NCBI GenBank assembly: GCA_009659925.1 | Contig: PUXW01000006.1 | Coordinates: 1-64,000 of the forward strand | From: Nitratiruptor sp. | GTDB taxonomy: Bacteria > Campylobacterota > Campylobacteria > Campylobacterales > Nitratiruptoraceae | Direction: 5' to 3' | Length of the DNA: 64,000 nucleotides | In this document: piece after piece, positions 2,050 to 38,177 of the stretch | How the letters are laid out: each line of letters begins with the position of its first letter | How positions within the stretch are numbered: position 1 is the stretch's first letter | Made by a program: the position numbers and the translations under genes | Notes under the pieces: model-generated | The model's database searches: none | Seen by the model: the letters and a program-made list of their open reading frames with translations, nothing else | What the model was told of the DNA's origin: nothing

Positions 2050-3042
2050 TTGAAGCAGTGGGCGAGTAAAATTGAGGATGCTAAAAGATTGGAGGAGCTG
2101 GAGGCTATCCGGATCGAACTTTTCGGGAAGAAGGGTTACTTCGCCCAGGAGTTCCAGCGGCTCAAGGAGCTTCCTGCCCACGAGAAGCCCCAAGTAGCCA
2201 AAGAGCTCAACAAAGCCAAAGAGGAGCTCTACCGGCTCATCCAGGCCAAAAAGGATCGCCTCTTGGCTCAAGCCATCGAGGAGCAGTTGCGTCAAGAGCG
2301 CATCGATCCCTCTTTGTATGATCCAACAGATTTCAAGGGGGCCCGCCATCCGGTCTCATGGACAATGGAGCGTATCGTCGAATACTTCCTCTCCCTCAAC
2401 TACGCCATCGAGACCGGCCCTCTGGTGGAGGAGGATTTTTACAACTTTGAGGCCCTCAACCTTCCCAAGCACCACCCAGCCAGGGCGATGCAAGATACCT
2501 TCTACTTTCGTGACGGGAAGCTCTTGCGCACCCACACCTCCCCTGTGCAGATCCGGACCATGGAGCGTCAAAAACCTCCGATCCGGATGATCAGTCCCGG
2601 GCCAGTCTTTCGCAGGGATTACGACTTGACCCATACCCCGATGTTCCATCAAGTGGAGGGACTCATGGTTGATGCCAAGGGGAAGGTCAATTTTGCCAAT
2701 TTGAAATGGATCCTCCACGACTTCCTCCACTTCATGTTCGGTGAGGTCGAGGTCCGCTTTCGCCCGAGCTTCTTCCCCTTTACCGAGCCAAGTGCCGAAG
2801 TCGACATTAGCTGTATCTTCTGCCAGGGTGAGGGGTGTCGGGTCTGCTCCCAGACCGGATGGCTCGAAGTTCTTGGGTGTGGCATGGTCGATCCCAATGT
2901 CTTTGAAGCGGTGGGGTACGAAGATGTCAGTGGTTTTGCCTTCGGTCTTGGGGTGGAGCGGTTTGCGATGCTCATCCACAAAATCCCAGATTTGCGGATC
3001 CTCTTTGAGGGAGACCTTCGACTATTGGAGCAGTTTCGATGA
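2050..3042 (+). CDS. pheS: Phenylalanine--tRNA ligase alpha subunit
   Basis: Catalytic subunit of the alpha2beta2 synthetase that charges tRNA-Phe. Class II motifs are visible: the [12 protein letters not shown] segment, the [18 protein letters not shown] motif 2 region and [10 protein letters not shown] (motif 3). The N-terminus is the helical tRNA-binding arm. It is 330 residues, typical. The start is an unusual TTG at 2050 preceded by AAGAGGGG (2036-2043); no in-frame ATG lies near. Its stop overlaps the pheT start by 4 nt (ATGA), so the two are translationally coupled. Confidence 0.97.
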
Positions 3043-5366
3043 TCGTTACACGGAGTTGGTTGCAAGAGTGGATCGATCTAAGCGACACCAGTACGAGTGA
3101 ATTGATCAAAACACTGAACCGGATCGGTCTGGAGGTCGCCCAGGTCTATCGGCTCTCTTTACCGGAGGGAGTTGTTGTCGGGCGGGTACTCTCATGCCAG
3201 CGCCATCCAAATGCTGATAAGTTGAGTCTCTGCGAAGTCGATATTGGCAAAGAACGGCTTCAAATCGTTTGTGGGGCGAAAAACGCCCAATATGCCCGCT
3301 ACGTAGCGGTGGCAACCGTTGGGACCAAGCTGCCAGGAGGAATAGAGATTGCCCCGGTGAAGCTGCGCGGAATCGAGAGCGCTGGGATGCTCTGCTCAGC
3401 CAAGGAGGTTGGGCTTCCTCCCATCGAAGATGGTATCATGCTCCTGGATGAATCCATTGGCACCCTCATCCCTGGCATGGAGCTTCGGGACTTGCCCCTC
3501 TTTCAAGATGAGGTGATCGACATAGAGCTTACCCCCAACCGGGGAGATTGTCTGAGTATCCTGGGTATTGCCCGGGAGTTGGCCTGTGCCCTGGGCAAGA
3601 AGCTCAAGACCATCGATCTGGAAGAGAGCAACGCCTTGCAAATTGGCATTGGCCGCCTTCTCAACCTCAATGTGGCTCGGGATGTGGAGGCAAACCTCAT
3701 CTACAAGGCCTTTTCAGCCAAGAATTTCACCAATCCTTTCCTCATCCGTTTCCGTCTGGCCCTGGTGGGAGAGCGTTTTTCCAACAGGGCCGATGAGTTT
3801 GCCTACTATATCACCCACTCCACTGGGGTCATTACCCGGATCTATGGATACGACTTCTTCGACGAAGGGGATGCTCCAGCCATCGTGGTTCAAAAGGATG
3901 AGCAGGCCTTCGATGCAGTCTATGGACGGGAAAAAGGGTCGATCATCGGGGTCATCCAGTATGAAGGCTCCAAGCCGAGTCGGGAGGAGGAGCGCTTCAT
4001 CATCGAAGCGAGTTACATCGATCCCGAGCGTATCTCGAAGCGTGTCTACGAGACCAAGATCCAGGGGGATTGGGAGTTCTATCGCAGTAGCAGGGGGAGC
4101 GAGCCCCGGCTCGAAATCGCCTTGCGCTACTTCAAGTACCTCCTGCGGCGCTACTACACCGAGTTCATGGTCTATGCTGGAACCCATGAAGCGGTGCGGG
4201 AGATCGAGCGAGAGGCGATCAAGATCGACTTTGAGACTTTAGATCATCTCATCGGTCAGCCTATCGAACGGAGTGCCATTGTCGAGATCCTCAAATCCTT
4301 GGAGTTTGAAATCTTGAGTGTGACCGAGGAGTCCATGGTCCTACGGCCCCCTCTCTTCCGCCACGACATTGCCAATGTGCAGGATGTGGCCGAGGAGATT
4401 GTCCGGATCTACGGAATTGATCGGATCGCCCCGAAGCCACTGTGCTTCCGTGAGGCCAATAGGCTCAACCGAAGTTACGAGACCTTCCAGAAGGAGCGGC
4501 TCCTTCGAACCCTAGCCACAGGCGCTGGCTACTTCGAGACCATCAGCTTTATCTTCACCTCCAAGGAGCGGTTGGAGCGCTACCAGATGCCCAGACTCAA
4601 GGAGGCCTACGAGCTGGTCAACCCCATCACCAAGGAACTCAATACCCTTAGAACCTCCCTCATTCCCAACCTCTTGGAGCAGGTAGAGCGCAATGTCAAG
4701 AATGGGAAGGATCGGGTCAAACTCTTTGAGGTGGGGACCGTCTTTACTCCTGAGCGCCAGGAGCGCAAGGTGGTGGGCTTCGCCTTCGCCGGCAAGCGGG
4801 AGCCGGAGGGGGTCTTCAACCAGGGAAAACCAGGTCCTGTCACCTTCGCCGACATGGTTCGAGATCTTGCCTCCATCCTGGGTCCCTTCGAGTTGCGCCG
4901 CAGTGATCCAATCAACGCCCTCATGCATCCCTATCAAAGTGCCCTCCTCATCCAGCGGGGAGAGCCCATCGGGTTGGTCTTCAAACTGACCCTGCCCATC
5001 CAAGAGGAGCTTGATTTGCCTCCTACCTACTTGGCCGAGCTGGATTTTGATCAGATCGATTTGAGCTACCCCAAAGCCCAACCCTTTTCCATCTACCAGC
5101 TCTCCTGGAAGGATTTGAGCATCTTGGTCGATCGGGAGTTGGACTTCGCCCAGATCAAAGAGGCCCTCTTCGATCTGCCGAAGGAGGTGAAGCGCTTCTA
5201 TCCCATCGATTTGTATAGCGATGAGCGCCTTGGTTCCCAGCGCAGTCTAACCATCCGTTTCGCTATCCAGTCCGATGAGAAGACCTTGACTGAGGAGGAG
5301 ATTGGAGGGATCATGGAGGAGATCTTGCACAAGTTGGAGACCCGGGTGGGGGCTCGATTGCGATGA
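3039..5366 (+). CDS. pheT: Phenylalanine--tRNA ligase beta subunit
   Basis: A 775-residue partner of PheS. Domain order: an N-terminal EMAP/tRNA-binding-like OB fold (about residues 40-150), the B3/B4 editing domain that removes mischarged Tyr (about 200-380), B5 (about 390-465), a catalytic-like core, and the C-terminal ferredoxin-fold anticodon-binding domain (about 680-775, starting near [13 protein letters not shown]). It overlaps pheS by 4 nt upstream and aroA by 4 nt downstream, so pheS-pheT-aroA-ispH is one operon. This grouping of tRNA synthetase with shikimate and isoprenoid genes is typical of Campylobacterota. Confidence 0.96.
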
Positions 5367-30552: not shown

Positions 30553-30936
30553 TTATTCGGTAACCTCCACCTCAACAGGGGTGCTCTCCCAGAGCCCATG
30601 TTTCGTACAATAGCTCATGGCGGTCAGTTTGAGGTTCTTGGTTGGGATGATATAGAAGTCCACTTCGGCTTGGCTCTTCTCGTTGCCCAGGGTTCCCGGG
30701 GTGAAGGTAGTTTGAGCGAGGAGACGCTCCCCATCCCAGAGCTGGATGTAGGCGATGTAGTGGTCGAAATCATCCGGATGGGCATACTCGTTCCCGACTC
30801 GGACCTTGACCTTGAACTTTTCTCCCTTCTTGGCTTTCGGTTCACAGATGACGAAGGGGGAGTGGCGGTCGATGTAGTCCTTCTTGGACTCTCGTTCAAT
30901 TTCGCTGATATCGACATAGCGGTTGACCGTTGGCAT
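30553..30936 (-). CDS. Superoxide reductase (class II, neelaredoxin-type)
   Basis: Reduces superoxide to peroxide without making oxygen, typical of anaerobes and microaerophiles. The mononuclear Fe ligands are all found: His25 (RHSPF), His53 and His59 (AHPDDFDH), Cys110 and His113 (YCTKHG). The Lys-rich loop between is present. The extra N-terminal rubredoxin-like desulforedoxin domain is absent, so it is the 1Fe form (127 residues). It has a regular promoter (30970-30975) and an AAAGGAGG ribosome site. Confidence 0.93.
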   Translation of the reverse strand: MPTVNRYVDISEIERESKKDYIDRHSPFVICEPKAKKGEKFKVKVRVGNEYAHPDDFDHYIAYIQLWDGERLLAQTTFTPGTLGNEKSQAEVDFYIIPTKNLKLTAMSYCTKHGLWESTPVEVEVTE

Positions 30937-31043: not shown

Positions 31044-31322
31044 ATGAAGATGGCACGGCGATTTCTCAAGAAGAGTTATATCACCACCTTACGGGAGATT
31101 CGAGAGACCAAGGAGATGATTCGTATCTACTGGCGCAAGGAGCGCACCCTCTACCCTGAGGCCAACAAACAGCTCGTCGACCTTTTCAAGATCTTGCTCC
31201 TCTTTCCCCTCCTCCTCTTGCCAGGAAGTGCCATCATCCTGACAATTCTCGAGATTGTAGCGCGGTTCTTCAAGACCTCCATCTTCCCCTCGAAACAACA
31301 TCTAAGAGGACGAACCTCTTAG
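31044..31322 (+). CDS. Small membrane protein, LETM1-like hydrophobic segment
   Basis: 92 residues: a basic, amphipathic N-terminus (about 1-42), one hydrophobic stretch rich in Leu/Pro (FKILLLFPLLLLPGSA, about 48-65), another helix, and a short basic tail. The FPLLLLPG element with KQ/PS nearby recalls the membrane part of LETM1-type proteins, but the match is brief. Likely leaderless: TATAAT ends 7 nt before the ATG and no ribosome site is seen. A second in-frame ATG lies two codons on. It overlaps convergent sdhE by 4 nt. Confidence 0.6.
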   Translation: MKMARRFLKKSYITTLREIRETKEMIRIYWRKERTLYPEANKQLVDLFKILLLFPLLLLPGSAIILTILEIVARFFKTSIFPSKQHLRGRTS

Positions 31323-32203
31323 ATGAAGGGGACCTCGACCACATTGTGTTGGAGTCCAAGCTCTTCTGGGGTGCAACCTAGGGCAAGACCGATGAGTTGA
31401 GGAAGGTGGAGGATAGGGAGTTTGGCCTCCCGATTGATGGTCTTCAAGGCAGCCTTCTGTTTCACGTCGAGGTTGAGGTGGCACAAGGGGCAAGGGGTGA
31501 CCATGAGATCGGCATCGTTGTCGAAGGCGTCGATGATGGCATTTCCAGTGAGGATGTTGGAGGTGCGGGGGGCTTGGAGATCGACGTGAAAGCCGCAGCA
31601 CTTATTTTTATGGTCGTAATCGACACTTTTGCCCTCTAGGGCTTCGATGAGCTGGTCGAGGCTGGTTGGCACATAGGGGGACTCGTGGGTTTGGTTCATC
31701 TTGTGGTGGAGCTGGCTTGGGCGAATGTTGTGGCAGCCGTAGAAAGGGGCGATATTGAGTTGGCTCAACGGGCGTACTACATGCTCTTTGAGACGATCAA
31801 GGCCATAGTCTTCGATCAGGGCGTAGAGGAAGTGGCGTACCGAAACACTCCCTTTATAGGTGAGTCCCACCTCTGAGAGGGCCTCGTTGACCCGGGCCCG
31901 AAGGGCGGGGTCACTATCGAGGCGCTCCTTGGTCATGGCCGTATTGAGCTGGCAGGTGTTGCAGATGGTTACCATGGGAAGTTCTAATTGCTCGGCGTAA
32001 CAGATGTTCCGGGCATTAAGAACGAGGCTGAGGAAGTCGTCGAAGTCTTGGAGATGGCTGGCTCCACAACAGCTCGCCTCATCTAGAAGGACCAGCTCGA
32101 TGCCGAGTTTCTTCGCTACCGCGAGGGTCGACTTGAGGAGCTCTGGCGTCGATTCTCTGGCGGTACAACCAGTATAGAGGGCATATTTGAGGGCTTGACT
32201 CAT
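31319..32203 (-). CDS. sdhE: Succinate dehydrogenase/fumarate reductase subunit E (CCG, HdrB-like)
   Basis: Third subunit of a type-E complex II; it attaches the complex to the membrane and is thought to pass electrons to quinone, replacing the usual heme-bearing anchors. Two CCG cysteine-rich domains are visible: first with Cys13, Cys45-Cys46-Gly47 and CNTC; second with YGCH, KCCGFH and TPCPLCH. The C-terminus LPILHLPQLIGLALG is the standard HdrB ending. 294 residues, no predicted transmembrane helix. Last gene of sdhABE; 10 nt from sdhB. Confidence 0.93.
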   Translation of the reverse strand: MSQALKYALYTGCTARESTPELLKSTLAVAKKLGIELVLLDEASCCGASHLQDFDDFLSLVLNARNICYAEQLELPMVTICNTCQLNTAMTKERLDSDPALRARVNEALSEVGLTYKGSVSVRHFLYALIEDYGLDRLKEHVVRPLSQLNIAPFYGCHNIRPSQLHHKMNQTHESPYVPTSLDQLIEALEGKSVDYDHKNKCCGFHVDLQAPRTSNILTGNAIIDAFDNDADLMVTPCPLCHLNLDVKQKAALKTINREAKLPILHLPQLIGLALGCTPEELGLQHNVVEVPFI

Positions 32204-32213
32204 GGGCGATCCT

Positions 32214-33176
32214 TTAAAACTTCACGCTGGAAGCGATTTTGACGAGCTTGCGGATCTCGTCGAGCTTTTTGGATTTGGGCATCTGCCATGGCATTACGAT
32301 CTTTCCCCGTTTCCACATCTCGAAGGCTTCTGGAAGGTGTTTGAAGACCCCAAAGCCCTCGCTGTAGGCGACGAGATGGCCCTCGTCGAGGATTCCATGT
32401 TTTTCGATGGAGTGTTTAAAGCCGACGGCGTGGCGGGTTGCTACATTGGACTTGGCCACCCCTTCCTGGAAGATCTCGTTATGGAGTTTGGTGATCTTGC
32501 CGATAGGATCGATGTGTTTGGGGCAGGCCTCGGCGCATTCGAAACACTTGACACAATCCCAAACCCCCTGGCCAAGGCGATCGACAATTTCGAGCCGCTC
32601 CCGTTTGGCTTTGTCCCGTACGTCGGCAACGAAGCGGAAGGCCTTCTCGAAGGCGGCAGGTCCCAAATACTCCTCGTTGACTTCCACCACGGGGCAGGCG
32701 TAGTAGCAGCAACCGCACTGGATACAATAGTCCGACTCTTCCAATTTCTCCGCCTCTTCGGGAGGGATGATGTGCTCCATCTTGGGATGCTCGTCGATGG
32801 GGGCCTCAAGCCAAGGCTTGACTTGGGCATACTTTGCCCAAAAGTCGCCTTTGTCCACCACCATATCCTTGATCGCCCGCTTCTTACTGACCGGCTCGAA
32901 GGTAAGCTCCCTTCCAAAAAGGGCGATCATATCCTCCATACGTTCCTTGCAGGCCAGAGTGGTCCGGCCATTGACCTTGATGGCGCAGCTTCCACAAATT
33001 CCATGGCGGCAGCTCCGCCGATAGGTGAAGCTCCCATCGTGCTCCCACTTAATCCGATTGAGGACATCCAGGACCACATCCTTGCGCTCGTCGATCTCCA
33101 TCTCGATGGTGTCGTAGTGGGGGAGGTAGTCGGTTTGAGCATTGAATCGGAAGAGTTTGATGGTGATCTTTGTCAT
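32214..33176 (-). CDS. sdhB: Succinate dehydrogenase/fumarate reductase iron-sulfur subunit
   Basis: Carries electrons between the flavin subunit and SdhE. The N-terminal ferredoxin domain has the [2Fe-2S] cysteines 56, 61, 64 and 76. The second half has CIQCGCC...CP and CVKCFECAEACP for the [4Fe-4S] and third cluster. At 320 residues it is longer than E. coli SdhB (about 240) owing to the C-terminal extension common in type-E enzymes. It lies 9 nt after sdhA. Confidence 0.95.
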   Translation of the reverse strand: MTKITIKLFRFNAQTDYLPHYDTIEMEIDERKDVVLDVLNRIKWEHDGSFTYRRSCRHGICGSCAIKVNGRTTLACKERMEDMIALFGRELTFEPVSKKRAIKDMVVDKGDFWAKYAQVKPWLEAPIDEHPKMEHIIPPEEAEKLEESDYCIQCGCCYYACPVVEVNEEYLGPAAFEKAFRFVADVRDKAKRERLEIVDRLGQGVWDCVKCFECAEACPKHIDPIGKITKLHNEIFQEGVAKSNVATRHAVGFKHSIEKHGILDEGHLVAYSEGFGVFKHLPEAFEMWKRGKIVMPWQMPKSKKLDEIRKLVKIASSVKF

Positions 33177-33185
33177 TGGGCTTCC

Positions 33186-34901
33186 TTAATACTTTCTCTC
33201 TTGGGGTTGGAACTTGCCAAGGACCACATCCCCATACTCGATGGAGATGTTCCCCTCTGGATCCATGTAGGCGTAAGTGTGTTTGAGAAAGTTCTCATCG
33301 TCTCGCTCGGGGTAGTCCTCCCGATAGTGGGCGCCCCGGGACTCTTTACGGGCGATGGCTCCCTCGACGATGAAGGCGGCGTAATCGAGCATGTGGCCAA
33401 GTTCGATGGCCTCCTGGAGGTCGGTGTTGAAGGTCTTGGATTTGTCGTCGATGCGAATCTGTTTGAAACGCTCCCGGAGCTGGGCAAGGATTTCTCGCTG
33501 TTTGAGGAGGGAGGCTTCGGTTCGGAAGACCCCGCAATTTTCGAACATGCTGTCTTGGAGCTCCTGGCGCAAGGTGGCGGTCCGCTCGGTCCCGTTATTG
33601 TGCATGATGAAGTCGATCTCCTCCAACATGCCCTTCCCGTCGGCGGCCTCGGCCTTGCGCAGCTCGATCCCCTTGTCCAGGTCGTCGGCGATGGTGTTGC
33701 CTATATGGCGTCCGAAGAAGAGGGCATCCAAAAGGGAGTTGGCCCCCAACCGGTTGGCGCCGTGGACACTCACGCAAGCACACTCTCCGGCTGCGTAAAG
33801 TCCCTGGGTAATGGTGGTGGGGGAGCGCTTCACATGGCCATCGATATCTACGGGAATTCCCCCCATCGAGTAGTGGGCGGTAACGGTGATCATGATGGGC
33901 TCTTTGACCATGTCTTGGCCCAAGAAGGTGATGGCGAGATCCCGGAGCTCGGGGAGGCGCTCCATGATCTTCTCCTCACCTAGGTGGGTGAGGTCGAGAT
34001 AGACAGCCATCTTGTCTGGTCCCACCCCGCGTCCCTCGCGAATCTCGTTCATAATGGCCCGGGCCACCACATCCCGGGGTGCAAGCTCCATCTTCTCCGG
34101 AGCGTAACGCTCCATGAAACGCTCTCCCTGGGCGTTGTAGAGCTTTCCTCCCTCTCCCCTAGCCGCTTCGGAGATGAGAATACCGCTTCCCGCTAGTCCC
34201 GAAGGGTGGAACTGAACGAACTCCATATCCTCCAAGGGAAGACCGTGGCGGGCGAAGATGGAGAGTCCATCGCCGGTGTTGGCGTGGGCGTTGGAGTTGA
34301 TCTTGAAGGCTCGGGCGTAGCCGCCAGTGGCAAACATCACCGCCTTGGCGTTGAAGATGGTGGGTTGAAGGTCGCGAAGGTTGTAGGCGACGACCCCATA
34401 GGCCTTCCCATCCTCGTAGAGTAGGTCAGCTACATACCACTCATCCCAGAACTCCACCCCGACCCGCTGGGCCTGCTCGAAGATGGTCTGCAATAGGGTC
34501 AATCCAGTTCGATCCTTGGCGAAACAGGCCCGGGGACGGCTCTGGCCCCCAAAGGGCCTTTGGGCGATTCGCCCATCCTCCCTCCTGGAGAAGGCTGCCC
34601 CCATATGTTCGATCCAGCGGATCGTCTCTGGGGCTTTGGAACACATGAGCTCCACCGCATCCTGATCGGCGAGGTAGTCGCTCCCCTTGATGGTGTCGAA
34701 CATATGTAACTCGACGCTGTCATCCTCGCTTAAAGCGGCGTTGACCCCTCCTTGGGCTGCTCCCGAGTGGCTGCGGAGGGGGTGGAGCTTGGTGAGGACG
34801 ATAACCCGCTTCCCCCTCCGTTTGAGCTCTCTCGCCGCCGCGCACCCGGCCAGTCCCGATCCGACGATAACAACATCCGAGGTTACGATAGGCAGATCCA
34901 T
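33186..34901 (-). CDS. sdhA: Succinate dehydrogenase/fumarate reductase flavoprotein subunit
   Basis: Catalytic subunit interconverting succinate and fumarate. FAD-binding [10 protein letters not shown] at the N-terminus, His45 in [10 protein letters not shown] for covalent FAD, the substrate-site HYSMGG segment and GLYAAGECA are present. At 571 residues it starts straight at the FAD domain: there is no twin-arginine signal, unlike the periplasmic methylmenaquinol:fumarate reductase MfrA of Wolinella and Campylobacter. The complex is therefore expected on the cytosolic side. Confidence 0.95.
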
Positions 34902-34930
34902 CGGTGTCCTTTGTGGTGGAAGTTTCCTCG

Positions 34931-34936
34931 ATTATA
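34931..34936 (-). promoter_or_regulatory. -10 box (TATAAT) of sdhABE
   Basis: Minus-strand TGCTATAAT, an extended -10, about 30 nt upstream of the sdhA ATG at 34901. Confidence 0.6.
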
Positions 34937-35000
34937 GCATTACCTTGCCATCACTCAGATTAAAAGGCTTTGGGAGAGGGGAATTTGAGGGGAGGTTTGT

Positions 35001-35006
35001 TACAAT
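35001..35006 (+). promoter_or_regulatory. -10 box (TACAAT) of the thiL operon
   Basis: TACAAT 22 nt before the thiL ATG, followed by an AAAGGAG ribosome site. Divergent from the sdhA promoter 65 bp away. Confidence 0.6.
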
Positions 35007-35027
35007 ATTTATCAAAGGAGATTTGCC

Positions 35028-35846
35028 ATGGAAAAAGAGCGCTTTTTCATAAGCAACTTTAATAACAAGGCGATTGGAGACGACGGGGCCTATATCGATG
35101 GAACCCTCTATAGCAGCGACACTTTTTGCGAGGAGGTCCACTTCAAACGTTCGTGGCTCTCCCTCGAACAAATTGCCAAGAAGGCCCTTTTGGTCAATAT
35201 CTCCGATGCCATCGCCATGAATGGAACCCCCCGCTATGGTCTGGTCGATGTGGCCCTGCCCAAAGAGCTCACCGCCAAAGAGTTAGCCACTATTGCCCAA
35301 GCCCTCCAAGATGAGGCGAAGCGGTGGGGGATCGAGATCATTGGAGGGGATACGGTGGCCGCCTCCAAACTCCACTTTGCCATCACCCTCATCTCTACGA
35401 CGAAACGGCCCCTCTTCCGCCGCCCTGTGCGTCCGGGCTATCTCCTCGGGCATACAGGTACCCTGGGTAAGGTGGGGTGGGAGTTACGCCGGCTCTTGAG
35501 GGGGGGGCGGATACACAAGAGGAGCAAGTTCGCCACTCCCCGGTTACGCCACGGCTTCATGGGGCGGTGTGCCCGTTTGCTTAAAGCGGCAATGGATATC
35601 AGCGATGGCCTCTTCGACGATCTGGCCAAATTGGGCCGGCTCAATAGGATCGGCTTTCGCCTCCTCCTTCCAATCCCCAAGGCCCAAGGGTGTAGCGGGG
35701 AGGAGTATGAGCTCCTTTTCGCCATCGATCCTAGGGATCGCATCGCTTTGGAGCGCTGTGCAGCCAAGAGCCGTACCCCCATCCGCTTCGTTGCCCGGGC
35801 CCTCCGGGGCCGTTTCCTCAACCGATGTAAACCACACCACTTCTAA
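35028..35846 (+). CDS. thiL: Thiamine-monophosphate kinase
   Basis: Makes thiamine diphosphate from the monophosphate. IGDDGAYI (metal-binding Asp pair), NISDAIAMNGTPRY, GGDTV and a later MDISDGL are the ThiL signature blocks. At 272 residues it is somewhat shorter than the E. coli enzyme (325), with gaps in the linker region, and has an unusually Arg-rich middle (about 150-190). First gene of thiL-truD-DUF5644-75 aa. Confidence 0.92.
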   Translation: MEKERFFISNFNNKAIGDDGAYIDGTLYSSDTFCEEVHFKRSWLSLEQIAKKALLVNISDAIAMNGTPRYGLVDVALPKELTAKELATIAQALQDEAKRWGIEIIGGDTVAASKLHFAITLISTTKRPLFRRPVRPGYLLGHTGTLGKVGWELRRLLRGGRIHKRSKFATPRLRHGFMGRCARLLKAAMDISDGLFDDLAKLGRLNRIGFRLLLPIPKAQGCSGEEYELLFAIDPRDRIALERCAAKSRTPIRFVARALRGRFLNRCKPHHF

Positions 35847-35854
35847 GGAGTACC

Positions 35855-36940
35855 ATGGATCGGCTCTTCTACCTCGATCACGCCCCCATCCCCTTCCACT
35901 TCCGTCCTACTCCCGAAACCTTCGTAGTGGAGGAGGTACCTCTTTATCCCTTCAAGGGGGAGGGGGAGCACCTCATCGTCAAGGTGCGCAAGAAGGGGCT
36001 TACCACCTGGCAGATGCTCCAGATCTTGAGTGAGCACTTGGGAGTGAAGATCCGGGATATCGGCTATGCCGGGCTTAAAGACAAAAATGCCCTCACCTAC
36101 CAGTACATCTCCCTCCCCCGCTCCTTCCAAGAGAGGCTCCAGCGCTTCTCGCATCCTCAAATCAAGATTATCGAGACCACCTACCATACCAACAAGCTCC
36201 GTTTGGGCCATCTCAAGGGAAACCGCTTCTTTATCCGGCTCAAGAAGGTCTCTCCAGTTGATGGGAGACGGATCGATTCGGTATTGAAACAGATCGACGC
36301 TATGGGCTTACCCAACTTCTTTGGATACCAGCGCTTCGGGGTCGATGGAGAGAACTACAAGATCGGGGAGGCCCTGGTCAGGGGGGAGAGGAAGGTCTCC
36401 AAGGCGAGGATGCGCCGCTTCTACATCAATGCCTACCAGAGCCATCTGTTCAACCTCTGGCTCTCTAAACGGATCGAATATTCCAAGCTCATCAACGCCT
36501 TCTCCCTCAAGGAGCTTGAGCAGATCTTTGACCTTCCCCAAGGGATTCTCAAGGAGCTCAAGGAACAGCCCCACTTCTTCAAACTCTATCCTGGAGATGT
36601 GATGGAGCACTATCCTTCAGGGAGGTTCTTTTTGGCCGATAATGTGGTGGCTGAGGGCGAACGCTTCTTTGCCCGCCAGATCGCTCCTACAGGATTGCTC
36701 CCTGGAATCCGGACCAAACGGGCCGATGGGCTGGCCCGGGAGATCGAACGGGATTTTGACGATGAGGCCATCACAGAGTTTGGGGCCAGACGCTTTGCCT
36801 GGATCTTCGTCGAAGATCTCGTGGGAGAGTACCAGCAGGAGCGGGGATGGTACCACTTAAACTTCTTTTTACCAAAAGGAAGTTATGCTACGGTACTACT
36901 CGAAGAGATCGCCCATAGAAAATTGAAGGAGTGCCAATGA
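35855..36940 (+). CDS. truD: tRNA pseudouridine-13 synthase
   Basis: Isomerises U13 in tRNA-Glu. The catalytic Asp76 is in GYAGLKDKNA, and the NFFGYQRFG motif (about 153-160) and the inserted TRUD domain with FYINAYQSHLFN are visible. 361 residues, normal. The start has TAAGGAG upstream. It is coupled by a 4-nt overlap (ATGA) to the next gene. Confidence 0.95.
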   Translation: MDRLFYLDHAPIPFHFRPTPETFVVEEVPLYPFKGEGEHLIVKVRKKGLTTWQMLQILSEHLGVKIRDIGYAGLKDKNALTYQYISLPRSFQERLQRFSHPQIKIIETTYHTNKLRLGHLKGNRFFIRLKKVSPVDGRRIDSVLKQIDAMGLPNFFGYQRFGVDGENYKIGEALVRGERKVSKARMRRFYINAYQSHLFNLWLSKRIEYSKLINAFSLKELEQIFDLPQGILKELKEQPHFFKLYPGDVMEHYPSGRFFLADNVVAEGERFFARQIAPTGLLPGIRTKRADGLAREIERDFDDEAITEFGARRFAWIFVEDLVGEYQQERGWYHLNFFLPKGSYATVLLEEIAHRKLKECQ

Positions 36941-37950
36941 AGTTGGAGATCAAAGCGATGTTTTTCGACGCTGCAAGGGACTATCTCCCCCACTATCGCT
37001 CGTTCTGGTTTGAGGTGGATGAAAGGAGGTCGATAGGCCATCTCCTCGAGCGCATCGCCCAAACCGACGAAGAGTTTGACTACGATCCCAACTACCCCCT
37101 CTTGCGGATCAACTCCATCGTCGTCCCCTACACCAAGAGAATCGATGAGGTTGCAAAGGAGTTTGGTCGGGAGTGGGTTATCGATCCCATCAGCAAGTAT
37201 CGCTCCACCAACGATTTACTCATCGATCAAAGCGATATGGATCGGGCCTTCGCCCTCATCGAACCCTATGCAAGTGGGGAGGATCGCCTCTTCTTTTACT
37301 CCAACAAGGAGCTCCACTACGCTTCAGCAACCTTGGAGTTTGATAAGGAGTACATTGGCGATGCGATCCTGGTCACCGCATACCGGATGATCAAGCGGGG
37401 CAATCCCCATAAAGAGGAGATCCTCCAGGCCATCAGCGAGGGTGTCAGCGGGTTGTGGAGCTGTGAGTTTGAAAACCTCATCTACCAGGGGCGCGACTAT
37501 GGTCCCTGGATCGAGGAGCTCAAATCGTGGGTTCAACCTCCCAAGCTCGACCTCTTCTGGCGACTTTGCTCCCGCTTAACCCGCAAGAAGCAACCCCCCA
37601 TTATCGAAGGACTCGAAGGGGTACCAACGGCCCTCTACCATCCAACCCCTCAGGCCCGTCAGTGGCTCTTGGACAAAGGCGCCCTCCTCGTTCCCTTCCC
37701 TCGAGAGTGGCGTAAGGGAGGTGAGAGCCTTATCGATGTCAATCCAGAGTTGGCCTATCGTAAAGGGGCTGCCATCTTACTCGATGCCATGGACAATGGG
37801 GCCGAGCTCTTCGTAACCTCCTCCAAGGAGCAAGCTGAGTACTTCCGCTCCAATTTTGGCCATTTCGAGCGCAGCGCTGGACGGGAGATCTATCTCGACA
37901 TCATCGCCTTGGAAGAGCTAGAGGAGATTGGCTTGCGGGAGGAGGTCTAA
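36937..37950 (+). CDS. DUF5644-like protein: cysteine-less relative of SdhB, with a CCG-like C-terminus
   Basis: A 337-residue protein that aligns by eye with this window's SdhB. DYLPHY (residues 15-20) and VDER recur at the same distance from the N-terminus, FGREWVIDPISKYR matches FGRELTFEPVSKKR, and EYIG matches EYLG before a similar helix. Yet every iron-sulfur cysteine is gone. The last 110 residues (ALYHPTPQAR ... ILLDAMDNGAELFVTS) recall the CCG domain of SdhE (ALYTGCTARE ... IIDAFDNDADLMVTP), again without cysteines. Probably a structural or regulatory derivative; function unknown. ATG at 36937 (AAGGAG upstream) is preferred over GTG at 36931. Confidence 0.75.
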   Translation: MKLEIKAMFFDAARDYLPHYRSFWFEVDERRSIGHLLERIAQTDEEFDYDPNYPLLRINSIVVPYTKRIDEVAKEFGREWVIDPISKYRSTNDLLIDQSDMDRAFALIEPYASGEDRLFFYSNKELHYASATLEFDKEYIGDAILVTAYRMIKRGNPHKEEILQAISEGVSGLWSCEFENLIYQGRDYGPWIEELKSWVQPPKLDLFWRLCSRLTRKKQPPIIEGLEGVPTALYHPTPQARQWLLDKGALLVPFPREWRKGGESLIDVNPELAYRKGAAILLDAMDNGAELFVTSSKEQAEYFRSNFGHFERSAGREIYLDIIALEELEEIGLREEV

Positions 37951-38177
37951 TGCGGGCTGAGTACAAGGAGGATTGTAAGTATGGCGATGAGATCCGCGCC
38001 GATACCAGAGAGGTCTTCGAGAAGTGGCTGCGCCGGTATGGATGGGATATCCCCGAACTCGATGACCAAATTGCGGCGGAGTTGATCTTGACCGAGATGC
38101 GCAAAGAGCTAGAGCGGCTTCAGGGCCAATATTGTGGTGGGGTATGTGACCTGGAACCCCCCCAGTGTCCGCAATAG
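37950..38177 (+). CDS. Small hypothetical protein, 75 residues
   Basis: Not recognised. Charged helix (about 10-60) followed by a Cys/Pro/Gln tail, YCGGVCDLEPPQCPQ, plus one Cys near residue 9. It starts on the last base of the previous stop codon (TAATG), so it is co-translated with the DUF5644-like protein and may act with it. The four Cys could bind a metal; that is inference. Confidence 0.65.
   Translation: MRAEYKEDCKYGDEIRADTREVFEKWLRRYGWDIPELDDQIAAELILTEMRKELERLQGQYCGGVCDLEPPQCPQ

Follow-up and report, generated by a model that had tools for sequence, protein, structure and literature searches.

A cluster-less paralogue of the SdhB–SdhE iron–sulfur arm of complex II is maintained by selection in Campylobacterota

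The stretch of Nitratiruptor sp. DNA analyzed here (64,000 nucleotides, termed the window) contains a gene, next to sdhABE, whose product combines an SdhB-like protein with half of an SdhE/HdrB-like one. The fused protein belongs to an ancient family that arose in Campylobacterota by duplication of the SdhB–SdhE module, the iron–sulfur arm of complex II. The three clusters of SdhB and both CCG clusters of SdhE were lost once in this family, which has since been maintained by purifying selection, either as a fusion or as a pair of adjacent genes. We refer to the cysteine-less SdhB-like protein as pB and to the cysteine-less SdhE-like protein as pE; both names are coined here.

The fused gene starts 4 nt inside truD, its start codon and the truD stop codon sharing an ATGA overlap (Table 1). 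The thiL–truD–fused gene run is divergent from sdhA–sdhB–sdhE, all three of which are intact, with 126 bp separating sdhA from thiL. A promoter and terminator scan stayed at chance level, and no sigma-70-type match in the intergenic region exceeded chance. Downstream, the ATG of a 75-residue ORF (37950–38177, plus strand) overlaps the stop codon of the fused gene; its translation ends ...YCGGVCDLEPPQCPQ. Further along, the segment 39004–41957 (plus strand) holds a 553-residue protein that carries four copies of the PilJ domain (type IV pili methyl-accepting transducer N-terminal) and is flanked by two rhodanese-domain genes, the second of which overlaps the end of the PilJ gene.

Table 1. Positions in the window of the fused gene, its domains and the neighboring genes.
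Feature	Coordinates	Strand	Basis
Fused cluster-less SdhB–SdhE paralogue, HP0468/DUF5644 family, 337 aa	36937..37950	+	ORF/translation; profile, fold, tree
Residues 1–100: SdhB N-terminal (2Fe-2S ferredoxin-like) fold, cluster loop deleted	36937..37236	+	
Residues 98–200: helical domain, the SdhB 4Fe-4S domain without cysteines; Pfam DUF5644 in relatives	37228..37536	+	
Residues 229–330: second CCG (HdrB/SdhE-like) domain without cysteines	37621..37926	+	Pfam HdrB-like_C E 0.0025; hhalign 94.3%
Genuine sdhE, 12 Cys	31319..32203	-	
Genuine sdhB, 13 Cys including all 12 ligands	32214..33176	-	
sdhA, with motif bearing the covalent-FAD histidine	33186..34901	-	
Divergent intergenic region, 126 bp, between sdhABE and thiL–truD–fused gene	34902..35027		
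thiL, conserved neighbor	35028..35846	+	
truD	35855..36940	+	
Presumed superoxide-reductase-like gene (SOR); conserved neighbor of sdhABE and of the split pair	30553..30936	-	

A sequence-only reading of the window had noted a likeness between the N-terminal part of the protein and the SdhB encoded nearby, and this was borne out over the whole SdhB domain pair. When the protein was compared with its own genome, the window's SdhB was the sole other match (32% identity over residues 2–112, E 3.8e-11), and a family profile built from 13 relatives aligned with the SdhB profile over all ∼206 residues of the domain pair (hhalign probability 99.85%, E 1.3e-30). The same reading had likened the C-terminal part to one CCG domain of SdhE. 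It corresponds to the second such domain, residues 180–270 of SdhE (hhalign probability 94.3%, E 1e-7), with LLDAMDNGAELFVTS aligned to IIDAFDNDADLMVTP. Full-length pE aligns with SdhE from end to end (hhalign probability 99.83%). The window protein scores 12.7 bits against TIGR00384, below the cut-off of 88 bits, and Pfam alone gives a weak HdrB-like_C match and no DUF5644, so relatives are needed to make the connection.

Structure prediction agreed with the profiles for both folds. The AlphaFold model of the window protein (pLDDT 91) retrieved PDB entry 3KWL as its best Foldseek match (E 3.8e-16), followed by about two dozen complex II iron–sulfur subunits, and the two-domain SdhB fold is present (Foldseek to SdhB E 5.7e-10, 233 columns). 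The CCG fold is seen in the model of pE (pLDDT 89), which matches HdrB with a TM score of 0.87 (E 3.5e-18); for the C terminus of the window protein it is indicated by the profile match to SdhE. Compared with SdhB of the SdhABE-type (class E) succinate dehydrogenase/methylmenaquinol:fumarate reductase (MFR), the family has the fold and about 200 residues of sequence in common, but it lacks the ligand sets and the C-terminal tail, has the 2Fe-2S loop deleted and forms a separate clade. Compared with SdhE, the MFR anchor subunit, and other HdrB-type CCG proteins, pE can be aligned over its full length and shares the fold; the window form keeps one domain.

The 12 columns that hold the cluster ligands of SdhB were inspected in 108 pB proteins, and cysteine is absent from them save in four sequences at C208 and one at C218. 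The claim that all cluster cysteines had gone from the window protein holds for 11 of the 12 SdhB ligands; the exception is C176 (GLWSCEF), which sits in the C208 column. Because its partner ligands are missing, the protein can hold no cluster, and its description as a non-redox SdhB–SdhE paralogue is supported. In the pB family the [2Fe-2S] loop is mostly deleted rather than merely mutated. The CCG cysteines (CX31-39CCX35-36CXXC motifs) are likewise replaced in nearly all of 43 pE proteins. Where pE is encoded separately, the ligands have mostly become Asp/Glu and Ser in both domains: at both CCG sites (L009:2124-2966, L034:5119-6018 and others), the second cysteine of CC is often Asp, and in CxxC the first is often Asp/Glu and the second Ser. 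These substitutions could possibly form a metal or ligand site, but the fused forms do not retain them.

The family takes several forms. In the split form, pB (∼210–255 residues) is followed directly by pE (∼230–281 residues); this pair is carried by Sulfurospirillum, Campylobacter jejuni/volucris, Arcobacter-like and several Helicobacteraceae genomes. Pylori-like Helicobacter have a fusion of ∼500 residues in which neither CCG-like domain has been lost. In the window protein the pair is likewise fused, but the first CCG domain is missing. Across the family, pE has thus been whittled down, from both domains in Sulfurospirillum and Helicobacter to one in the window, and the pB part is the constant core. 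In Helicobacteraceae, a conserved 156-residue protein without a Pfam match lies between pepF and the pB–pE pair (L185:1958-2428, L038:6420-6890, L039:6198-6671); in L185 (genome G199) the split pair itself spans 2536-4076.

The proposed relation to DUF5644 was supported by homology to 3KWL and by membership of the same clade. DUF5644 (PF18712) corresponds to the helical domain of pB proteins and was matched in 18 of 21 family members; the match is weak in Sulfurovum homologues and missing from the window protein itself. The ∼500-residue fused member of H. pylori-like genomes matches DUF5644, and HP0468 is listed under this name. The window protein is homologous to 3KWL, described as an H. pylori hypothetical protein, in sequence over residues 1–176 (E 1.4e-12) and in fold. 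We infer from length, homology and the DUF5644 listing that 3KWL is HP0468. The H. pylori form differs in having both CCG-like domains, whereas the window form has only the second. HP0468 variants have been tied to gastric cancer in a GWAS (PMC6090961). The papers searched gave no function for HP0468, DUF5644, Cj1459 or Cj1460, and none of them links the family to SdhB or complex II. Databases already listed the family as DUF5644/HP0468, a crystal structure was available, and Pfam named its C terminus HdrB-like (HdrB-like_C, PF22196, covers the C-terminal domain). The new elements are the recognition of DUF5644 as the SdhB 4Fe-4S domain without its cluster, the occurrence of pB and pE as separate genes, their operon with sdhABE and the distribution of the family.

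Of 200 near-complete genomes of Campylobacterota, about 120 carry a relative. This figure is our own count from a class-wide match list; 20 of its candidates were retrieved, and each scored as pB and none as SdhB. A genome scan with a narrower pB alignment included some genuine SdhBs among its matches, and these were removed by profile score. The dN/dS ratio is about 0.15 (median) in pB and 0.14 in pE, as against 0.09 in SdhB. In the tree, pB forms one clade (SH-aLRT 100) that contains none of the SdhB and FrdB sequences included, and the groups within it largely follow taxonomy. The suggestion that the window protein is a fossil was not upheld, given the dN/dS, the spread and the two intact adjacent genes in many lineages, which make the fusion one of several forms.

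We then considered the surroundings of the gene in relatives. Among 49 fused-form loci, 28 lie directly upstream of sdhA and four directly downstream of sdhE, and 38 are within 7 kb of sdhA, which supports the link to sdhABE. Direct adjacency is seen in Sulfurovum, Arcobacter-like and other genomes (in L032 the fused gene overlaps sdhA by 4 nt), and every full-length SdhA adjacent to a fused gene has the covalent-FAD histidine motif. Many fused loci have thiL bordering the order fusion–sdhA–sdhB–sdhE–SOR. In Sulfurospirillum the same frame reads pB–pE–SOR beside thiL, sdhABE being absent there. This suggests an ancestral block of pB–pE–sdhABE–SOR beside thiL, from which sdhABE would later have been lost in some lineages. 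In the family of the window organism, the fusion follows truD and is still next to sdhABE. Across 17 loci, evolutionary-rate (distance) covariation gave a partial r of 0.54 with SdhE and −0.19 with SdhA, a result from non-independent data that is too weak to single out a partner. Many Sulfurospirillum genomes also encode, a few genes from the split pair, a further SdhA-like flavoprotein of ∼560 residues without the covalent-FAD motif (L034:306-1994 and similar).

A complex II flavoprotein is present in every pB-positive genome that was checked. The family does not track SdhABE, as six genomes have pB/pE without a genuine SdhE (Sulfurospirillum G040 and G056, C. volucris G049, Helicobacteraceae G034 and G051, and G023). 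Those pB-positive genomes without SdhE have enzymes of the FrdABC type only, and in two others (G035 and G052) the SdhABE type is the sole one, so that what they all share is the flavoprotein and not SdhABE. Nor do pB-negative genomes lack complex II: all 20 that were checked have FrdA/SdhA. Since every checked genome of the class has such a flavoprotein, the co-occurrence says little. SdhABE occurs without a pB family protein in several organisms closely related to that of the window, and genomes in several families have FrdA or SdhA without a detectable pB; the protein is thus accessory rather than universal and, in those genomes at least, dispensable. Searching the pB-negative genomes with a wider profile revealed no hidden pB apart from one decayed remnant with two in-frame stops (Helicobacteraceae, G123:C1:1319405-1319560, L196), which points to a recent loss in one genome.

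The sequence-only reading had raised an assembly factor or regulator of sdhABE as a possible role. The operons strongly support a connection of this kind, but strict specificity did not stand, because relatives persist in FrdABC-only genomes and some sister genomes have SdhABE without the fused protein. We favor, with some reserve and at rather less than even likelihood, the view that the protein is an accessory factor of complex II, cytoplasmic and without a redox role, that would stand in for the iron–sulfur arm during assembly. The retained SdhB fold would let the protein occupy the SdhA/FrdA surface later taken by the genuine iron–sulfur subunit. In that position it would maintain the flavoprotein in an open, stable state during FAD insertion and covalent flavinylation or, alternatively, would keep it inactive until SdhB/FrdB is loaded. 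The role would equal that of SdhE(YgfY)/SDHAF2 elsewhere. In E. coli, SdhE(YgfY) promotes flavinylation and contacts FrdA at the surface that FrdB occupies; loss of FrdB/SdhB lowers flavinylation as well (PMC5773532). SDHAF2/SdhE(YgfY) (PF03937) was detected in none of 15 Campylobacterota genomes tested, E. coli and Caulobacter being positive as controls, and PF03937 gave no Pfam match to the window protein. A cluster-less SdhB that keeps its fold, is encoded directly before sdhA and occurs where SDHAF2 is missing would be a natural substitute. The likeness to SDHAF2/Sdh5/SdhE(YgfY) would be one of analogy, both being non-redox proteins proposed to sit on the iron–sulfur-subunit surface of the flavoprotein; there is no homology, and fold and size differ. 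A constant pB with a shrinking pE is as expected if the flavoprotein-facing part matters, and we counted this in favor of an accessory factor. Against it, the pB–pE pair is not near frdCAB in lineages without SdhABE.

The strongest competing explanation, which we regard as somewhat improbable, is that the duplicated SdhB–SdhE pair was recruited to a job unrelated to complex II and that its neighborhood is only a relic of tandem duplication. The family is widespread in lineages without SdhABE, where its neighbors are thiL, truD, SOR or pepF; it is absent from some SdhABE genomes and variable in FrdA-only genomes. The gene order beside sdhABE may indeed be partly inherited from the original tandem duplication, but direct adjacency has been kept across several families and in two orders, upstream of sdhA and downstream of sdhE.

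Less probable, and in our view unlikely, is a role in regulating or inhibiting complex II. As a dominant-negative mimic, the protein would dock on the flavoprotein or the SdhB–SdhE site and, under certain conditions of oxygen or hydrogen supply, keep the flavoprotein away from the respiratory chain. A cluster-less mimic of electron-transfer subunits in an operon with sdhABE would suit such a role, the E. coli factor SdhE(YgfY), when bound, is itself an inhibitor of succinate/fumarate interconversion (PMC5773532), and HP0468 is reported as raised by H2 (PMC6090961). However, the same genomic evidence serves an assembly role equally. We give still less weight to a scaffold or chaperone for the SdhB–SdhE arm itself, acting on SdhB and SdhE or on cluster assembly and not on the flavoprotein. 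The protein mimics SdhB joined to SdhE, and distance covariation is highest with SdhE, but the protein is kept in genomes without SdhE (Sulfurospirillum, H. pylori-like, C. volucris), and the SdhE-like half is the part being lost in Sulfurovum and the window family. A decaying pseudogene or chance resemblance, to which the lost ligands and the remnant in G123 might point, is very improbable and is refuted for the family as a whole by selection (dN/dS 0.15), spread (about 120 of 200 genomes), a confident fold and a profile E value of 1e-30.

A wider and more doubtful proposition is that Campylobacterota evolved their own complex II maturation factor from a duplicated SdhB–SdhE arm stripped of its clusters, which would occupy SdhA/FrdA while flavinylation or assembly proceeds, in place of the missing SDHAF2/SdhE(YgfY). 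The family also makes it possible to test how bacteria that lack SDHAF2/SdhE(YgfY) deal with the covalent FAD of complex II. The family is a clear case of a redox relay, with five cluster sites in two adjacent proteins, that has lost all its cofactors and yet has been kept by selection. It also supplies an origin, descent from complex II subunits, for DUF5644 and for H. pylori HP0468, whose structure has been solved and which has hits in the gastric-cancer GWAS; this origin may be useful to the gastric-cancer field.
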